In this document: positions 1,056 through 7,630 of the stretch, piece after piece
How positions within the stretch are numbered: position 1 is the stretch's first letter
Layout of the letters: every line of letters begins with the position of its first letter
From: an uncultured Gammaproteobacteria bacterium
Lineage (GTDB): Bacteria > Pseudomonadota > Gammaproteobacteria > Arenicellales > UBA868
DNA length: 7,630 nucleotides
Direction: 5' to 3'
Assembly: GCA_913051905.1 (NCBI GenBank)
Contig: CAJXBY010000129.1
Coordinates: forward strand, 1-7,630
Notes under the pieces: model-generated
Told to the model about the DNA's origin: nothing
The model's database searches: none
Seen by the model: the letters and a program-made list of their open reading frames with translations, nothing else
Program-made: the position numbers and the translations under genes

Positions 1056-1916
1056 ATGAAATATGAAACCCCTAGAACGACCAAAGAGGCTGCAGTACTC
1101 ATGATGCACGGAAAAGGCAACGCTTTCCCGCTTGCAGGTGGTACTGATCTTATGGTCCGCATGAAGAACGGACAGATCGAGCCAGATCTTGTCATTGATA
1201 TCAAACACATTGCGGCAATGCAGTCGATCAAAAAATCAGCGAGCGGTTTTCGCATCGGTGCCGCCATTTCTGCGGCTGAGATGGGTGAGAACGCACCCCT
1301 TAAGAAGGCCTGGCCCGGCGTTGTTGAAGCGGCCAACCTGATCGGATCAGATCAGATTCAAAACCGCTGCACTATCGCGGGCAATCTATGCAATGCGTCA
1401 CCTGCGGCAGATGCGGTGCCTGCGCTGATCGCTGCCGGTGCAAAGGTCAACGTTGTAGGGCCACACCGGCGACGGAGCGTTGCGGTCGAAAAAGTGATCA
1501 CCGGTCCGGGCTCGACGTCGCTTGCCACAGGTGAGTTGGTCGAAGCGATTACGCTGCCAGCAAGGCCACCCAAGTCGGGCGATGCCTACCTGCGCTTCAT
1601 ACCGCGATCCGAGATGGATATCGCGGTCGTAGGCGCCGGCGTGAGCCTCACACTGGACAACAAATCAGTCATCAAGAGTGCAAGGGTCTCCCTGGGTGCG
1701 GTTGCACCCACGCCTTTGCTGGTCCCAGCTGCTGCCAAAGCCATTATCGGTACCAAACTGAACGCCGCTGCGCTCGATAAACTCGCGCTAGCGTGTGCCG
1801 GAGCATGCGATCCGATTGATGACAAGCGCGGCACCATCGAGTTCAGAACGGAAGTCGCCGGTGTTCTTGCACAGCGTGCGGCGAAAATTGCCTATAAGCG
1901 GGCTGGAGGTAAATGA
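1056..1916 (+). CDS. Molybdenum hydroxylase FAD-binding (medium, CoxM-like) subunit
   Basis: This is the flavin subunit of a xanthine-dehydrogenase-family hydroxylase, taking electrons from the iron-sulfur subunit and passing them to an external acceptor. The 286 aa match the usual 280-290 of the family. AGGTDL (residues 27-32) and TIAGNLCNASPAAD (106-119) are the two pyrophosphate/FAD-binding signatures of the PCMH-type flavin domain. A CO-dehydrogenase flavoprotein C-terminal domain follows from about residue 175. No extra cysteine-rich insertion of the 4-hydroxybenzoyl-CoA reductase beta type is present. ATG 1056 gives the canonical MKYE start; a weak GGGAA lies at 1041-1045. The same frame is open upstream to a stop at 906-908 but has no ATG, GTG or TTG, so this start is well constrained. 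It is the first gene of the operon, and its TGA overlaps the next start. Confidence 0.93.
   Translation: MKYETPRTTKEAAVLMMHGKGNAFPLAGGTDLMVRMKNGQIEPDLVIDIKHIAAMQSIKKSASGFRIGAAISAAEMGENAPLKKAWPGVVEAANLIGSDQIQNRCTIAGNLCNASPAADAVPALIAAGAKVNVVGPHRRRSVAVEKVITGPGSTSLATGELVEAITLPARPPKSGDAYLRFIPRSEMDIAVVGAGVSLTLDNKSVIKSARVSLGAVAPTPLLVPAAAKAIIGTKLNAAALDKLALACAGACDPIDDKRGTIEFRTEVAGVLAQRAAKIAYKRAGGK
1905..1909 (+). promoter_or_regulatory. Shine-Dalgarno GGAGG deciding the start of the 2Fe-2S subunit
   Basis: GGAGG lies inside the last codons of the FAD-subunit gene. Two adjacent ATGs follow. The first (1913) is only 3 nt away; the second (1916) is 6 nt away, a standard spacing, so 1916 is preferred. 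Either start gives translational coupling, with a 4-base or 1-base overlap with the preceding stop. Confidence 0.7.
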
Positions 1917-2392
1917 TGGCTGGAACACTTGTGTCAACAACGGTCAATGGCGATCACACCGAATTTGTCTGCCAGACGGACGAGACGCTACTTGAAGTAC
2001 TGCGCAACCGGCTAGGGCTGACCGGTTCTAAAGAAGGCTGTGGCACTGGAGACTGCGGTGCCTGCAGCGTTACGCTTGACGGTCGTCTGGTTTGCGCCTG
2101 TCTCGTGCTAGGGGTCGAGGCTCAGGGCCGTGAGGTCAATACCATAGAAGGTCTGGCCGACGGCGATACGTTACACCCGCTGCAAACCAATTTCATCAAA
2201 CATGCGGCGTTGCAGTGCGGGGTCTGTACGCCGGGATTTCTGATTGCCAGCAAGGCGCTGCTCGACCGAAACCCCAACCCCAACGACGAGGAAATCCGAT
2301 TTGCCCTGGCCGGCAATCTCTGCCGCTGCACAGGCTACGACAAGATCGTACGGGCTGTTAAGGCTACGGCGAAAGAACTCCGAAAGAAATAG
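1916..2392 (+). CDS. Molybdenum hydroxylase 2x[2Fe-2S] (small, CoxS-like) subunit
   Basis: This is the electron-transfer subunit linking the molybdenum centre to FAD. The protein is 158 aa, typical for the family (150-170). Counting from ATG 1916, the N-terminal plant-type ferredoxin fold carries cluster ligands C42, C47, C50 and C62 in the pattern GCGTGDCGACSV...CL. The C-terminal helical domain carries C101 and C104 (QCGVCTPG) and C136 and C138 (GNLCRCTGY). All eight ligands are present, so both clusters should form. There is no signal peptide; the complex is expected to be cytoplasmic. It overlaps the FAD-subunit gene, in the order medium-small-large seen in cox-type clusters. An alternative ATG at 1913 adds one Met. 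Confidence 0.95.
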   Translation: MAGTLVSTTVNGDHTEFVCQTDETLLEVLRNRLGLTGSKEGCGTGDCGACSVTLDGRLVCACLVLGVEAQGREVNTIEGLADGDTLHPLQTNFIKHAALQCGVCTPGFLIASKALLDRNPNPNDEEIRFALAGNLCRCTGYDKIVRAVKATAKELRKK

Positions 2393-2446
2393 ATGTTCGA
2401 CTGACGACACGCCCAGCCAATCAAACCAATAACCGATTCAATTCTC

Positions 2447-2451
2447 AGGAG
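2447..2451 (+). promoter_or_regulatory. Shine-Dalgarno AGGAG deciding the start of the catalytic subunit
   Basis: AGGAG directly abuts an ATG at 2452, leaving no room for initiation there. The in-frame ATG at 2461 is 9 nt downstream, a workable spacing. The protein therefore probably starts MANDSKF rather than MPEMAND. Confidence 0.65.
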
Positions 2452-2460
2452 ATGCCTGAA

Positions 2461-4722
2461 ATGGCGAACGACAGCAAGTTTCGAAACCGAAATTTCAAAT
2501 CTGTAGGTACACGCCCACCCCGACCTGACGGCCTCGACAAGGTCACCGGCCGAGCCAAGTACGGTGCAGACACATTTGCACCGGGACAACTCGTCGGACT
2601 CGTTTTGCGCTCCCCTCACGCACACGCCGAAATCAAGCGGATCGATACGTCTAAAGCCGAAAAACTAAACGGTGTCAAAGCGGTCATCACCAGCAAGGAC
2701 CTACCCGACCTGACCGATGGCGACCGTGATTTGTATGACACGCTAGAGAACTGTATGGCCCGTGAAAGAGCGCTCTATGATGGGCATGCTGTCGCTGCTG
2801 TGGCGGCCATGGATGCCTCCACTGCCCGGAAAGCACTCAAACTGATTCGTGTCACCTACAAGGTCCTACCGCACGTGACCGATGTCGATGAAGCCATTAA
2901 ACCTGGCGCCCCCATCGTACAGCCTCGGGTCTATACCCGCGGGGTATCACCGAAGCCAAAGTCACCGTCAAACGTGGCGCGGGTGAGTGAGTTCGGTCAC
3001 GGCGACGTTGAAGCAGGATTCAAAGAAGCCGATGTGGTCATCGAGAAAAGCTACAAGACAGAACAAACGCACCAGGGCTATATTGAACCACACGCCTGTC
3101 TTGCTAGTGTCGGCCCTGACGGCCACGGTGAACTCTGGGTAACAACCCAGGGACATTTTATTTATCGCAATACCTGTGCGGCCCTGCTCGGAATGGATGT
3201 TGCAAAACTCAAGGTAACGTCCTCAGAGATCGGCGGTGGATTCGGCGGCAAGACCCATGTCTGGATGGAACCGCTGGCGCTTGCGTTGTCTCGCAAATCG
3301 AACCGTCCGGTCAAACTCGAGATGACCCGGGACGAAGTCTTCCGGAGTACCGGACCGACGTCTTCGACCTCCATCGACGTTAAGATCGGTGCCAAAAAGA
3401 ATGGTCAAATCACTGCAGCAACCGCGGACTTGCGCTACCAGGATGGTGCGTTTCCCGGTACCTGGGCGATGCTGGGTGCGATGACGTCCTATGCCTGCTA
3501 TGACCTCAAGAACGTTAAAACCGTGGGTTACGACATTCTGGTCAACCGGCCAAAAGTGGCTGCCTACAGAGCGCCTTCGGCACCCATGGCCGCTTTTGCC
3601 GTGGAAAGCACTATCGATCAAGTGGCTGTAGAGGTCGGCATGGACCCTCTTGATTTCCGCATCAAGAACGCCGCAAAAGAAGGAACCCAATCGTCTTATG
3701 GACCGACCTTTGGCCCCATCGGTATTGGTCCTACCCTGGCGGCGGTCAAGAAACATCCGCATATGCGCGCCAAGCTCGGCAAGAATCAGGGTCGGGGCAT
3801 GGCCTGCGGTTTCTGGTTCAATTTCGGCGGTGAGACCTGTACTGATATCAACATTGGTGTCGATGGAACCGTCACGCTGACCGTCGGCACGGTGGATGTT
3901 GGCGGTGCCCGCGCATCACTGTCGCTGATCGCGGCCGAAGAACTTGGTATTCCGTACGAACGGGTCAAGTGCAATATCACTGACACGGGTTCACTTGGAC
4001 ATAACGACATGACCGATGGCAGTCGGGGGACTTTCTCTTCGGGTATGTCAACCATTTTTGCGGCCCGCCATGCGATTGAGGAGTTGCGTCAACGCGCAGC
4101 GGACACCTGGGAAATCCCTGTTAAAGATGTGGTCTGGGCAGACGGCAAGGCAAGCGCCAAAGGCAAAAAGCACAAAAAGCTTAAATCGCTGAGCCTCGAT
4201 GACCTGGCTGCCGGGTCACCGAACACAGGCGGTCCGATTGCCGGGCATAGCCAGATAGTAGCCGATGGCGCCGGCGTTTCATTTGCCAGCCACATCTGCG
4301 ATATCGAAGTAGACCCGGAAACCAGTGCTACAAAAGTCGTGCGTTATACCGTTGTTCAGGATGCCGGCAAAGCGATCCATCCCGACTATGTCGAAGGACA
4401 ATTTCAGGGTGGTGCTGCCCAGGGTATAGGCTGGGCACTGAACGAGGAATATGTCTACGATGAGAAAGGCCGCTTACAGAATCCTGGATTTCTGGATTAC
4501 CGGGTTCCGGTCTGCTCGGACCTGCCGTACATCGATACAGAGATTCTCGAGATTCCAAACCCCAATCATCCCTACGGAATCCGCGGGGTGGGAGAGACCT
4601 CCATCGTGCCTCCACTGGCCGCAATCGGAAACGCGATCTCCGACGTCGCCGGTGTTCGGATGACCCACGTGCCGATGTCACCACCGCGGATTCGCAAGGC
4701 GATCAAGGAAAATCAAGCCTGA
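2461..4722 (+). CDS. Molybdenum hydroxylase molybdopterin-binding catalytic (large, CoxL/XdhB-like) subunit
   Basis: This catalytic subunit hydroxylates an unknown substrate at a Mo-pterin centre. Numbering is from ATG 2461 (753 aa). The aldehyde oxidase/xanthine dehydrogenase a/b hammerhead domain opens with RPDGLDKVTGRAKY and LRSPHAHAEI. Cofactor-binding motifs follow: QTHQGYIEPH (202-211) and EIGGGFGGK (256-264). The active-site loop is AYRAPSAP (368-375). The C-terminal GVGE (709-712) supplies E712, the conserved catalytic glutamate. CO dehydrogenase form I has AYxCSFR at the loop and form II has AYRGAGR; neither is present, so CO oxidation is unlikely. The usual GQG pterin motif is replaced by VDVGGARA (478-485), a pattern I recall from other uncharacterised branches of this superfamily. 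Length is normal (750-800) and there is no signal peptide. A 68-nt gap separates it from the small-subunit gene. Confidence 0.93.
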   Translation: MANDSKFRNRNFKSVGTRPPRPDGLDKVTGRAKYGADTFAPGQLVGLVLRSPHAHAEIKRIDTSKAEKLNGVKAVITSKDLPDLTDGDRDLYDTLENCMARERALYDGHAVAAVAAMDASTARKALKLIRVTYKVLPHVTDVDEAIKPGAPIVQPRVYTRGVSPKPKSPSNVARVSEFGHGDVEAGFKEADVVIEKSYKTEQTHQGYIEPHACLASVGPDGHGELWVTTQGHFIYRNTCAALLGMDVAKLKVTSSEIGGGFGGKTHVWMEPLALALSRKSNRPVKLEMTRDEVFRSTGPTSSTSIDVKIGAKKNGQITAATADLRYQDGAFPGTWAMLGAMTSYACYDLKNVKTVGYDILVNRPKVAAYRAPSAPMAAFAVESTIDQVAVEVGMDPLDFRIKNAAKEGTQSSYGPTFGPIGIGPTLAAVKKHPHMRAKLGKNQGRGMACGFWFNFGGETCTDINIGVDGTVTLTVGTVDVGGARASLSLIAAEELGIPYERVKCNITDTGSLGHNDMTDGSRGTFSSGMSTIFAARHAIEELRQRAADTWEIPVKDVVWADGKASAKGKKHKKLKSLSLDDLAAGSPNTGGPIAGHSQIVADGAGVSFASHICDIEVDPETSATKVVRYTVVQDAGKAIHPDYVEGQFQGGAAQGIGWALNEEYVYDEKGRLQNPGFLDYRVPVCSDLPYIDTEILEIPNPNHPYGIRGVGETSIVPPLAAIGNAISDVAGVRMTHVPMSPPRIRKAIKENQA

Positions 4723-4733
4723 ATTGAAGAATT

Positions 4734-4979
4734 GTGCTGACGGTCAGCTTATCAGGCCCGCTAAAAGCTGCGGCGGATGGCGCTGCTTCCGTGTCGATTA
4801 GGGCTGTAACGATTCGTGAACTGTTGCGCAAGCTCGTCAAACGGTATCCGGACATGCAAAATCACCTCGACGATGGTATCGCGGTATCAGTCAACGGCGA
4901 GATTTATCGTGACAGCTGGTCCCATGAAATTCCAGAAGATGCCGAAGTGTTTCTGTTGCCGCGGATTCAGGGTGGATAG
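4734..4979 (+). CDS. MoaD/ThiS-family ubiquitin-like sulfur carrier
   Basis: This 81-aa protein has a beta-grasp fold pattern and ends exactly in Gly-Gly (LLPRIQGG), the tail that is adenylated and thiocarboxylated in MoaD. The inner signature AVSVNGEIY followed by IPEDAEVFLLP corresponds to the MoaD strand-turn-strand segment (VNxxxV...DGDEVxxxPP). Such a protein is the small subunit of molybdopterin synthase. The start is GTG at 4734, 11 nt after the catalytic-subunit stop; only a weak purine stretch (GAAGA) precedes it, which suggests coupled translation. Placement as the last gene of the hydroxylase operon suggests a dedicated supply of molybdopterin. A sulfur-carrier role in another pathway cannot be excluded, and no MoaE partner is in view. 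Confidence 0.82.
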   Translation: MLTVSLSGPLKAAADGAASVSIRAVTIRELLRKLVKRYPDMQNHLDDGIAVSVNGEIYRDSWSHEIPEDAEVFLLPRIQGG

Positions 4980-4999: not shown

Positions 5000-5076
5000 G
5001 CGCCCGTAGCTCAGCTGGATAGAGTACCTGGCTTCGAACCAGGTGGTCGGGAGTTCGAATCTCTCCGGGCGCGCCA
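5000..5076 (+). tRNA. tRNA-Arg (anticodon TCG)
   Basis: A full cloverleaf folds. The acceptor GCGCCCG (5000-5006) pairs with CGGGCGC (5066-5072). The D stem is GCTC/GAGT with one G-T pair. The anticodon stem CCTGG/CCAGG encloses loop CTTCGAA, with anticodon TCG at 5034-5036. The variable region is TGGTC. The T stem GGGAG/CTCTC (one G-T) encloses TTCGAAT. The discriminator is G, followed by an encoded CCA. It reads CGA, with CGG possible by wobble. It lies 20 bp after the MoaD-like gene on the same strand. Its 3' half is duplicated at 6103-6149. Confidence 0.95.
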
Positions 5077-5078
5077 TA
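5032..5078 (+). repeat. 47-bp direct repeat, copy 1 (3' part of tRNA-Arg; left att-like site)
   Basis: It runs from the first base of the anticodon loop through CCA and two further bases (TA). It is identical over all 47 bp to 6103-6149, in the same orientation. Similarity extends upstream to 5020 with three mismatches (5023, 5027, 5031). A repeat beginning at the anticodon loop and covering the tRNA 3' end matches the usual attachment site of tyrosine-recombinase elements. Confidence 0.9.
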
Positions 5079-5113
5079 ATTTCAATGAGTTACGGCGCCC
5101 TAAAATATTCCAC

Positions 5114-5259
5114 TGTCCGAAATAAAGCGCATTGTTCGAAATAATTCAGACCTCCAAGGTGGTAATCGATGGCTGGGGAACTGCTGTAAGGCGTGTTTTT
5201 ATTTCTGCCGCATAGAGTGCCTGAACAAACAAATGTAACGCTGTTAGTGGTGTCCGAAA
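5114..5259 (+). promoter_or_regulatory. Three TGTYCGAAA repeats upstream of the AllA-family gene
   Basis: TGTCCGAAATA (5114-5124), TGTTCGAAATA (5133-5143) and TGTCCGAAA (5251-5259) lie in the 198 bp between the tRNA and the gene start. The first two are 19 bp apart, close to two helical turns; the third ends 15 bp before the ATG. They could be an operator set, or accessory binding sites near the att-like junction. No convincing -35/-10 pair was found in this stretch. Confidence 0.3.
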
Positions 5260-5274
5260 CCAATCAGGAAAACA

Positions 5275-5856
5275 ATGAGTCAACTTCTCGAAATACCGGT
5301 CGAGCCCTTATCGTCCGAGTCCTTTGTCTCGTTCGGGGAGGTCATCGACGAGTTTCCCGATTCGGCCCACGCCGATGACGGATTCAAAGCCATGAAACCC
5401 GTTGACTTTAAAATAGACGGTGCAGTGGACCTGCAAGTCATTCGCTACGATTCTAAGCCGATGAAATTCCACCTCATGGAACGACATCTCCATGTGACCG
5501 AAACCCGGGTTCCGCTGACTCCAGAGCCGGTGGTCCTGGTGGTCGCGCAATCGACGTCTCCCGACGACCGGGCGGCGCTACCTCGCCTCGAGTCCGTTCG
5601 CGCCTTTCTCCTCAACGGCCGGCAGGGCGTCCTTCTCGGCACCGGCACCTGGCACGCCTTGGACTGTTTTCCAGTGCGATCACGCCATGCCGATTTCGCC
5701 TTCATCTCGGAAGCAGCGACAGAGAAAGAATTGCGGGAAACGCCGAATCTCACCGACTGCCGCCGTAGCCTCGTGGTCGACGTCTTGAAGGAACTCGACG
5801 TGTGCTTCGCGGTAATCGATGTTGCAGGGTTGTTATACGGATCCTCCGGAGGCTAG
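5275..5856 (+). CDS. Ureidoglycolate lyase (AllA)-family protein
   Basis: The family's namesake splits ureidoglycolate into glyoxylate and urea in allantoin (purine) breakdown, using a cupin-like fold. The protein is 193 aa against about 160 for E. coli AllA. It opens with the family pattern PLSSESFVSFGEVID (residues 11-25). It has the ERH element (69-71), then a core from 108 to 134 containing VRAFLLNGRQGV and GTWHALDCFPV, where W126-H127 match the conserved WH of AllA, and ADFAFI at 139-144. The extra length is mostly the segment at 26-60 and the C-terminus. AGGAA (5266-5270) precedes the ATG. It is the only gene between the two tRNA-Arg repeats. No other allantoin genes are in view, so the exact reaction is unproven; the family also contains uncharacterised members. 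Confidence 0.75.
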   Translation: MSQLLEIPVEPLSSESFVSFGEVIDEFPDSAHADDGFKAMKPVDFKIDGAVDLQVIRYDSKPMKFHLMERHLHVTETRVPLTPEPVVLVVAQSTSPDDRAALPRLESVRAFLLNGRQGVLLGTGTWHALDCFPVRSRHADFAFISEAATEKELRETPNLTDCRRSLVVDVLKELDVCFAVIDVAGLLYGSSGG

Positions 5857-6102
5857 CTGATGCCTGTCCAGTAACGTCAGAAAAGCCCTCTTTCTCTCCC
5901 CTGCGGCGAGAAGGCAGACACTGAGAGAAGTAATCAATCAGCTAAAGGCTATACCCTCCTCCTCTATTTACCTAGTCAAGCCTCAACAAGGCAATAAAGG
6001 GCAAAAGACCCCCAAACTAAAATTTATATCCGACAAAAGTTGTACAATAATCCGCAATAAACGCTGCACTTAAAGGGAAAACGACCACCGTAGGGTATCT
6101 GA
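5857..6102. other. AT-rich non-coding stretch with a weak hairpin
   Basis: No credible gene is seen. An imperfect hairpin lies 35 nt after the AllA-family stop: TTCTCTCC (5892-5899) pairs with GGCGAGAA (5905-5912), with one mismatch and a 5-nt loop. It lacks a T-tract, so termination is uncertain. From about 5940 the sequence becomes noticeably richer in A and T, ending at the tRNA-derived repeat. It differs from the GC-rich genes on either side, as expected of element DNA or decaying sequence. Confidence 0.5.
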
Positions 6103-6149
6103 CTTCGAACCAGGTGGTCGGGAGTTCGAATCTCTCCGGGCGCGCCATA
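6103..6149 (+). repeat. 47-bp direct repeat, copy 2 (partial tRNA-Arg; right att-like site)
   Basis: It is identical to 5032-5078: anticodon loop, 3' anticodon strand, T arm, acceptor 3' strand, CCA and TA. Upstream similarity reaches 6091 with three mismatches. The 5' anticodon strand here is TCTGA instead of CCTGG, the D arm is missing and no matching acceptor 5' strand (GCGCCCG) is present, so it cannot make a working tRNA. It lies 71 bp beyond the end of the minus-strand cyclase-type gene. Confidence 0.9.
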
Positions 6150-6220
6150 TTTCTGGACCTTAAAGAAGAAAGGACACCGTGTCTGAAGCATTGTTCCGTG
6201 AGTGAACTTGCGGACCCGTG

Positions 6221-7630
6221 CTACTCCAAAGGCAATCCTGCCTGGTGTATCAGGTTGGCCCAGTTCTGTATATGCTCCGGTGACTCACCTCCAGGCTTAA
6301 GGATTTTGGCAACCGTCCAGTCAGATTTGAGTGCCAGAGTCTTATCAATAGCCGCTTTTGCCTCCTCCATCTGCCCTTGGCCACAATACGCCGCGGCCAG
6401 GCCAAGAAAGGGCCAAAACGCGCTCGACCTCAACCGTGTTGCTTCGAGGAGACTTTCAATCGCCTGATCAAACTGCTCCAGGCAGGTAAGGGCAAAGCCC
6501 CTAATCAAAAAGAAATTCCATCGCGATGGATCATTTGGACTCAATCTGATAGCGCGGTCAAAACTTTCAACGCTCTCTTCTAACCGGCCAAAGTTAAACA
6601 AAATAAAGCCCAATTCGTTATGTGCGAGTGCCAAGTTTGGATTCAGCCTGGTGGCCGTTTCACACTCCAGAATTCCCGCTTCGGGCTGGCCTTTCAACTG
6701 TAAAATCGGTGCCAGCGCCAGATGCGCAAGGGCATTGCCGTCTTGCAACTGAACCGCACGTTCGGCCGCCTGCTCAGCTTCACTGAGGATTTCTTCGCGC
6801 GACCCGGTATAGCTTGTCTGGCCCGAACGAATCGAATAAGCCCCCATCATCGCGATCATGGCGTGGGCATCGGAGAAACTCGGATCAAGCTCAACGGATT
6901 GATCGAATAACCTCCTGCATTCGGCGTGATCCTCATGGCTGAATGGACGGTAATAGTGCGCAAGGCCTTTCTGGTAGGCTGTCCAGGAGTCCAGCTTCGG
7001 GTGGTTCTCGCGTTGGAACCGTTCGCGTTCAGCGATACCCAGGGCGGGGACCAGAACCCCGGTAATCGCTTGACTGATCTCGTCCTGCAAATCAAAAAGG
7101 TCACCGGTTGGACGATCGTAGTTCTCCGCCCATACCTGGCGATCATTCACAGCATCGATGAGTTGCACAGTAACACGGAGCCGAGACGGCGACATCCGCA
7201 GGCTTCCTTCAACGATATAACGCACACCCAGGTCTTCGGCGACGCGTTTTGCTGGAACATTCTCACCCTTGTAGGAGAAACTTGTATTGCGCGATATGAC
7301 AAACAACCAGGGAAATCGGGACAACGCCGTGATCAAGTCTTCAACGATGCCGTCCGCAAAGTATTCCTGCTCCTGATCTCCGCTCATATTGGTAAAGGGC
7401 AATACCGCTATCGCGGGCAATTTATTTTCATCGTCCTTGACCACAGCAGGCTCGTCTTGATCGCCTGAGGGGCTGTCTGAACTTGAATCGTCACTTAGTT
7501 TGGAGAGCTCAGATATGTCTATTTTGTAGGTAGAGATCGGATCGCGGATGTTTTTCATCTCCTGCTCACCCGTCGACACAAATGTCATGTCCAGCTTCCG
7601 GCAGACCTCTTCGTGGAACTTTCCTGAAAG
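6221..7630 (-). CDS. Adenylate/guanylate cyclase-type protein, C-terminal part: TolB-like domain plus TPR array (N-terminus beyond window)
   Basis: The frame is open from the right edge to TAG at 6221-6223, giving 469 visible residues. Residues 1-37 (LSGKFHEEV..., then LGEQ-like STGEQEMKNIRDP and STYKI) match the tail of a class III nucleotide cyclase domain, which normally reads GEQxxKNIxxPVxVY. The ATG at 7588 is therefore internal, not the start. An acidic, Ser/Asp-rich linker follows (about 44-70). A TolB-like domain spans about 71-197, with IAVLPFTNMSGD, EYFADGIVEDL, RYIVEGSLR and VQLIDA. About six TPR-like helical pairs fill 216-439, for example AHNELGFILFNFGRLEESVESF. The protein probably makes cAMP or cGMP and uses the repeats for protein contacts, but the catalytic residues are outside the window. 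No membrane segment is visible. It converges on the tRNA-derived repeat. Confidence 0.9.
   Translation of the reverse strand, partial: LSGKFHEEVCRKLDMTFVSTGEQEMKNIRDPISTYKIDISELSKLSDDSSSDSPSGDQDEPAVVKDDENKLPAIAVLPFTNMSGDQEQEYFADGIVEDLITALSRFPWLFVISRNTSFSYKGENVPAKRVAEDLGVRYIVEGSLRMSPSRLRVTVQLIDAVNDRQVWAENYDRPTGDLFDLQDEISQAITGVLVPALGIAERERFQRENHPKLDSWTAYQKGLAHYYRPFSHEDHAECRRLFDQSVELDPSFSDAHAMIAMMGAYSIRSGQTSYTGSREEILSEAEQAAERAVQLQDGNALAHLALAPILQLKGQPEAGILECETATRLNPNLALAHNELGFILFNFGRLEESVESFDRAIRLSPNDPSRWNFFLIRGFALTCLEQFDQAIESLLEATRLRSSAFWPFLGLAAAYCGQGQMEEAKAAIDKTLALKSDWTVAKILKPGGESPEHIQNWANLIHQAGLPLE

Follow-up and report, generated by a model that had tools for sequence, protein, structure and literature searches.

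A probable collapsed remnant of a tyrosine-integrase element in tRNA-Arg(TCG) that retains one intact gene

INTRODUCTION

Decayed mobile elements that carry attL and attR and are devoid of integrase and transfer genes are known as cis-mobilizable elements (CIMEs). According to passages of two reports, classical CIMEs with cargo in S. salivarius measure 1.2-13 kb, microCIMEs contain no genes, and other CIMEs, from S. agalactiae, occupy the 3' end of a tRNA-Lys gene (PMC7563491, PMC5704250). The signature searched for by the island finder Islander is related: an intact tDNA, the island, and a 3' tDNA fragment that has been displaced and keeps the orientation of the tDNA. The corresponding sections of its description list 2,083 islands in the anticodon-centred class and state that candidates without an integrase or shorter than 2 kb are rejected (PMC4383910). 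Tycheposons of aquatic bacteria, as outlined in part of PMC10872708, span 4-200 kb and contain a tyrosine recombinase. More generally, a partial tRNA copy is regarded as the scar of an integrated element, and one example given in an excerpt of PMC9897764 is flanked by 44-bp direct repeats.

Here, we describe a segment of about 1 kb between an intact tRNA-Arg(TCG) and a second copy of its 3' part. The term "window" denotes the whole stretch of DNA analysed, which comprises 7,630 nt. The features to which the text refers are as follows.

4734..4979, + strand: ThiS/MoaD-like gene of the left flank, separated from the tRNA by 20 bp and preceded by an xdhBCA-type operon (1056-4722) (ORF list, Pfam)
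5000..5076, + strand: intact tRNA-Arg(TCG), putative attL; in the standard model its 5' half would be chromosomal and its 3' half element-derived (ARAGORN, Rfam)
5032..5078, + strand: copy 1 of the 47-bp core repeat, opening with the first base of the anticodon loop and extending 2 bp beyond CCA (repeat search, simulations)
5077..5274, no strand: left end of the segment, 43% GC, without a detected integrase remnant (integrase comparison)
5082..5093, + strand: TCAATGAGTTAC, putative arm-type or integrase-end motif, beginning 50 bp after the core start (viral-contig scan)
5275..5856, + strand: intact PF04115 gene, 193 aa, the sole recognisable cargo (ORF list, Pfam, relatives)
5857..6102, no strand: right-hand end of the segment, devoid of ORFs of 60 aa, 44% GC over 5854-6082 (ORF list, integrase comparison)
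6091..6102, + strand: half-site of the core to the left of the crossover, which the standard model would assign to the element (9/12 bases tRNA-like)
6103..6149, + strand: copy 2 of the 47-bp core repeat, a displaced tRNA 3' fragment and putative attR (repeat search, simulations)
6221..7588, - strand: gene of the right flank, truncated at the window edge, for the TPR part of an adenylate cyclase-like protein (ORF list, Pfam)

RESULTS

An exact repeat of the tRNA 3' end

ARAGORN detected a single tRNA in the window, the tRNA-Arg(TCG) with its anticodon at 5034-5036, and Rfam placed it at 5000-5073. A direct repeat of 62 nt with 94% identity (5020-5081 and 6091-6152) contains an exact core of 47 bp, and the two cores lie on the same strand with a start-to-start distance of 1,071 bp. 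When the window was simulated 200 times with a first-order Markov model, the longest exact repeat had a mean length of 12.4 bp and a maximum of 17 bp. These results confirm the exact duplication of the tRNA-Arg 3' end around a segment of roughly 1 kb, which the first-pass annotation of this DNA had reported. The first base of the core is the first base of the anticodon loop (CTTCGAA), in agreement with the boundary proposed there, and the intact tRNA followed by a displaced 3' fragment in the same orientation supports the layout of a tRNA-integrated element. The recent exchange or continuing recombination that the first-pass annotation read from the perfect identity of the repeat is no more than a possibility, as 47 identical bases set only a weak limit on age.

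Tandem arrays of tRNA-Arg occur in other genomes (L024-L027, L073), and copy 2 might accordingly once have been a complete second tRNA-Arg whose 5' half decayed. The 12 bases immediately 5' of the copy-2 core match the tRNA at 9 positions (shuffle p 0.0004), whereas the next 20 bases further 5' match at only 4, which is chance level. Because of this difference between inner and outer bases, copy 2 does not resemble a complete tRNA that has decayed; the pattern is expected for a recombination half-site. The step from 47/47 identical bases in the 3' half to 4/20 in the outer 5' half falls exactly at the integrase crossover point, and the motif at 5082-5093 adjoins copy 1. Taken together, these features render a tandem duplication very improbable. 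By eye, we also noticed an 8-bp inverted repeat, CGACCACC at 6082-6089 and GGTGGTCG at 6113-6120, around the start of the copy-2 core; CGACCACC is absent from the equivalent place left of copy 1.

The tRNA region (5000-5079) was 98.75% identical (79/80) to the Arg-TCG tRNA stretches in the loci L070 and L071. The tRNA also matched that of genome G010 at 78 of 79 positions, the sole difference being the first anticodon base (TCG versus ACG). With a strict pattern, Arg-TCG was found in 12 of 274 sampled genomes of the class of G010, which was taken as Gammaproteobacteria by inference, and in two cases it lay near an ACG copy (L073, L078). The idea that integration itself had turned the anticodon from ACG into TCG was dropped as unneeded, Arg-TCG being a separate gene in these 12 genomes.

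A single recognisable gene between the copies

The interval between the two copies contains four ORFs with a length of 60 aa or more. Only one of them (5275-5856) belongs to a Pfam family, namely PF04115 (Ureidogly_lyase; E 2.8e-19, 69.8 bits versus a gathering score of 23); the remaining three overlap it and have no Pfam family. A profile of its family recovers the solved ureidoglycolate hydrolases 1xsq, 1xsr, 1yqc, and 2bdr. The protein stayed below every listed NCBIfam cut-off for ureidoglycolate lyases, with a best score of 55.1 of 230 bits. The earlier designation as an "AllA-family" enzyme thus stands at the level of the Pfam family, and the function is not proven by it. An xdh-type operon is located upstream of the tRNA; any other genes of an allantoin pathway would be found beyond the window. 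No defence role was indicated by PADLOC or PHROGs, neither of which returned a family match for the protein.

A protein search returned 23 proteins. Eleven relatives (P0001-P0011) cover 97% or more of the gene with 76-89% identity, the corresponding value over the alignment being 74-89%. Because these eleven match across at least 97% of the gene, we consider the gene intact and the family conserved. The first 99 residues of another relative, P0015, match the window gene in frame 1 (97%) and the following part in frame 2 (88%); because the match switches frame, a frameshift is indicated in that sister sequence or its assembly. P0006 has an N-terminal extension, which we take to resemble the C-terminus of an acyl-CoA dehydrogenase and which presumably hints at a different gene neighbourhood elsewhere.

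Among genome contigs, the PF04115 gene had counterparts at eight loci with 40-42% identity. The genome samples comprised 1,963 genomes, with repeat draws counted again and the clade of the window not among them; in these, matches were obtained in 2 of 398 genomes (39-40% identity; E limit 1e-20) and in 0 of 194, 0 of 107, and 0 of 19 further genomes (E limit 1e-15). The gene was not found in viral contigs. A literature search joining "ureidoglycolate lyase", "genomic island", and "tRNA" yielded papers that, by title, concern plasmids.

The same tRNA half adjoins integrase genes in viral contigs

Exact 45- and 39-base pieces of the window core gave no matches in viral contigs, and neither did an exact 21-base piece of the copy-2 left half-site. 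A degenerate pattern of the anticodon region had one match, in the viral stretch L039. A looser pattern for the 3' half of Arg-TCG, by whose design the matched half starts at the anticodon loop, retrieved 18 stretches from 17 viral contigs, L039 among them. ARAGORN detected an Arg-TCG tRNA in L039 and in five of the other 17 stretches (L041, L043, L049, L050, L053). The remaining 12 have the 3' half without the tRNA 5' half; their preceding bases differ, with at most a few stem bases kept. L049 comes from a phage contig that carries 14 tRNA genes.

In 11 of the 18 stretches and 11 of the 17 contigs (L039, L040, L042, L045, L047, L048, L052, L053, L054, L055, and L056), the site has beside it an ORF that exceeds the gathering score of PF00589 and whose edge is no more than about 0.25 kb away from the start of the core. 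No candidate ORF from L043, L044, L046, L049, or L050 entered the Pfam comparison, and L041 is the other end of the contig of L042. The corresponding ORF of L051 scored below the gathering score (22.4 of 27.1 bits). L054 has a further, upstream ORF, distinct from its PF00589 ORF, that belongs to no Pfam family. Judging from these neighbouring ORFs, the 3' half of Arg-TCG is a real target of tyrosine integrases.

In L039 (IMGVR_UViG_3300033142_001305), 64 bp separate an intact tRNA-Arg(TCG) from an integrase gene, and genes for portal, prohead protease, and major capsid proteins come next, within 6.6 kb; the stretch may be a capsid-encoding satellite or a cut prophage. L041 and L042 belong to one contig of 15,459 bp, with an intact tRNA at 40-116 and a 3' fragment at the other end. 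Here, an exact 47-bp repeat occurs at 70 and 15,362, that is, 15,292 bp apart, and the integrase gene adjoins the distal fragment. Its layout is that of the window with a predicted integrase present.

In two of the 12 genome regions with Arg-TCG (L079 and L080), the left sides are 93% identical over a 9,980-bp alignment that extends to 3 bp past tRNA-Arg(TCG), where they diverge, and in L077 an integrase gene lies 39 bp after the tRNA. Thus, tRNA-Arg(TCG) appears to be an integration hot spot. None of the plasmid or phage DNA matches to 5000-6152 covered 80% of the query; the best covered 7-13%, at the tRNA ends.

A motif beside the tRNA recurs near integrase ends

The sequence TCARTGANTTAC, within the motif at 5082-5093, occurs exactly only once in the window, both strands considered. 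The exact motif was present at 4 of 31 sites examined, namely copy 1 of the window, L040, L054, and L056. It lies 49 bp from the core start in L054 and, with one mismatch, 50 bp from it in L052, and it is found 50 bp on the other side of the core in L040, L056, and L053 (one mismatch in L053). It is absent from the closest analogues, L039 and L041/L042, and from the surroundings of copy 2 in the window. A literature search under the sole spelling TCAATGACTTA returned papers that were unrelated by title.

Since the motif had been defined after inspection of the window and a few loci, a wider scan of viral contigs served as the test. The pattern consisted of the T-arm sequence GTTCGARTC, 18-22 bases, and then TCARTGANTTAC. 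It matched 77 viral stretches, compared to none for the reversed motif; L054 is among the 77, so 76 are new. The 77 stretches span 41 distinct 20-base tRNA pieces. According to an integrase profile built here, the nearest integrase-like ORF lies at most 2 kb downstream in 38 of them, upstream in 12, and farther away in 3, with none found in 24. An integrase-like ORF that faces the tRNA ends 37-158 bp from the T-arm start in 31 of 77 stretches, compared to a background of 1.8% at random positions; at least 1.3 kb of room was available in 53 of 77, and 20 sites without a facing integrase lacked this room. By these counts, TCARTGANTTAC just past a tRNA T-arm is a strong signature of integrase att sites. 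Because the motif tracks both tRNA 3' ends and facing integrase ends, the left end of the window segment was probably the integrase-side end of a former element, and the motif fits an integrase element as the ancestor.

Judged by the positions of ORF ends, some of the integrases may have their stop codon in the TTA of the motif. One IMG/VR contig, with the stretches L094 and L117, has a tRNA 3' half plus motif at both ends, an arrangement that points to elements in tandem or to a (circular) genome with terminal repeats.

No integrase is detectable in the segment

A profile of ten integrases detected no integrase or integrase remnant in 5077-6102 (best E 1.8). Comparison of the segment with those ten integrases and the 53 integrase-like ORFs of the motif set gave a best E of 0.016 over 16 residues. 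This match, at the right end and to three related integrases, was judged to be due to chance. On the minus strand, an open frame in 5077-5274 that terminates at the motif was considered as an integrase C-terminus and rejected; its sole match among the C-termini of the 31 facing integrases had an E of 4.7. The first-pass annotation had described the segment as containing one gene and no integrase, which we can confirm, PF04115 being the only recognisable family and integrase similarity not exceeding chance. A self-sufficient satellite is not supported, as no integrase was found in the segment.

The missing integrase could be compensated by others. Integrases of different domain make-up occupy tRNA-Arg(TCG) sites elsewhere, and one of them, belonging to another element, might move the 1,071-bp unit of attL, cargo, and attR in trans, or in cis after accretion, so that the segment would still be mobile. 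The identity of both 47-bp cores and the intact left motif are in favour of this view. On the other hand, the surroundings of copy 2 lack the motif, the half-site of copy 2 was not found in viral contigs, and the sequence collections, which contain no reads, showed no second location, excised form, or polymorphism. We regard continuing mobility as unlikely. Unlikely in the same sense is the corresponding interpretation as a minimal non-autonomous integrative element of 1,071 bp. Such an element would consist of one metabolic gene between intact cores, with an equally intact arm motif on the left, and would be moved in trans by the integrases of resident phages or islands that use tRNA-Arg(TCG). 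If it were true, single-gene metabolic cassettes would spread between gammaproteobacteria without a mobility gene and would escape island finders that filter by size and integrase presence.

Flanking genes and host

The closest relative listed for the TPR protein, among the best 120 of 7,919 matches, was 93% identical and labelled Arenicellales. Among the best 120 of 8,000 xdhA relatives, nine were organism-labelled, seven of them as Gammaproteobacteria or Pseudomonadales and two only as Proteobacteria/Pseudomonadota. The host is therefore probably a gammaproteobacterium and perhaps a member of the Arenicellales. When the TPR gene was used as a clade guide in the genome samples, it was found in 0 of 3 and 0 of 18 genomes (E limit 1e-60) and in 0 of 66 (1e-80).

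The order of an xdhBCA-type operon followed by a small ThiS/MoaD-like gene (1056-4979 in the window) is repeated in all eight loci L011-L018, whose identities to the window are 72-74% for xdhA and 47-53% for the MoaD-like protein. The best plasmid records for the operon were rhizobial, at about 73%. Seven window proteins were compared with all 12 Arg-TCG regions, some of which are shortened by contig ends, and no window protein matched there; because of this, we see no synteny with these regions. The 20 short loci that surround Arg-ACG tRNAs encode none of the seven proteins either.

The window may derive from a metagenome contig, and assemblies typically break at long exact repeats. The 47-bp repeat might therefore have let the assembler skip a longer island before a distal PF04115 segment or join two genomes. 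Tandem arrays, which may occur given that the motif follows both copies in the contig of L094 and L117, would add to such a risk. A single contig, however, resolves both copies together with 1 kb of unique sequence, and the Arenicellales label on the right agrees with the xdhA labels on the left. An assembly or population artefact is thus improbable.

DISCUSSION

Our preferred interpretation, to which we assign a probability of roughly 0.74, is that the segment is a collapsed, CIME-like remnant of a tyrosine-integrase element in tRNA-Arg(TCG) that kept one gene. A collapsed island with one metabolic gene had been among the earlier suggestions, and it emerges as the best reading from the integrases beside the same tRNA half, the intact analogue L041/L042, and the integrase-end motif. 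According to this model, a tyrosine-integrase element, be it a prophage, a satellite, or a genomic island, would have integrated into tRNA-Arg(TCG) with the crossover at the anticodon loop. The element would have brought its own tRNA 3' half, leaving the tRNA intact (attL, 5000-5078), and the original 3' half would have been displaced to 6103-6149 (attR). A later deletion would then have removed the integrase gene and nearly everything else. The remaining piece of about 1 kb would retain the integrase-end motif beside attL, one intact PF04115 gene, and attR. We infer the deletion, selection on the PF04115 gene, and the arrival of this gene as cargo rather than as a later addition. Against this model speak the copy-2 left half-site, which was not found in viral contigs, the segment itself, in which no integrase or phage fragment reveals the ancestor, and the motif, which is exact at only 4 of 31 sites, is absent from the closest analogues, and has no integrase-like ORF in 24 of the 77 stretches. 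The genomes sampled yielded no syntenic relative that would show an empty site or a longer island at this position.

Remnants of this sort are already known, and the window looks like a clean example rather than a surprise. If the interpretation is right, it represents a clean, nearly minimal end state of a collapsed integrative island, in which one intact gene and an integrase-end motif are left along with two tRNA scars. The segment would be missed by any finder that, like Islander in the cited sections, requires an integrase and a length of 2 kb or more. The combination of T-arm and TCARTGANTTAC, with its 77 versus 0 matches in viral contigs, may provide a simple handle for spotting other integrase-less remnants.

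How does the segment compare with described systems? Tycheposons, as defined in the cited part of PMC10872708, are likewise tRNA-bounded cargo elements; the window segment falls outside that definition with its 1.07 kb and no recombinase found. The integrated elements mentioned in the excerpt of PMC9897764 measure about 9-23 kb in archaea and about 121 kb in another case, compared to 1,071 bp here. The IMG/VR elements L039, L041/L042, and L054 use the same tRNA 3' half with the same boundary as the window. L041/L042 shares the exact 47-bp repeat, and L054 shares the motif and has a PF00589 ORF adjoining the site. Unlike the window segment, all three have an integrase and are kilobases long, and L039 adds portal, protease, and capsid genes.

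With the islands in the Islander sections of PMC4383910, the window shares the signature of an intact tDNA and a displaced 3' fragment in the same orientation, and it corresponds to the anticodon-centred class, a boundary that other elements use too. Because the segment contains no integrase gene and its 1,071 bp are below the 2-kb limit, these two filters place it outside that catalogue. Relative to the streptococcal CIMEs in the passages cited above, it is slightly smaller (1.07 kb) and resides in a probable gammaproteobacterium. Its ancestor could also have been a prophage or satellite and not necessarily an ICE or IME, and no accretion partner was seen, which differs from the CIMEs of those passages. 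Like these CIMEs, it keeps att-like ends, recognised as putative attL and attR by their resemblance to integrase-bearing elements, while all recombination and transfer genes are gone and PF04115 is the only family recognised among the four ORFs.
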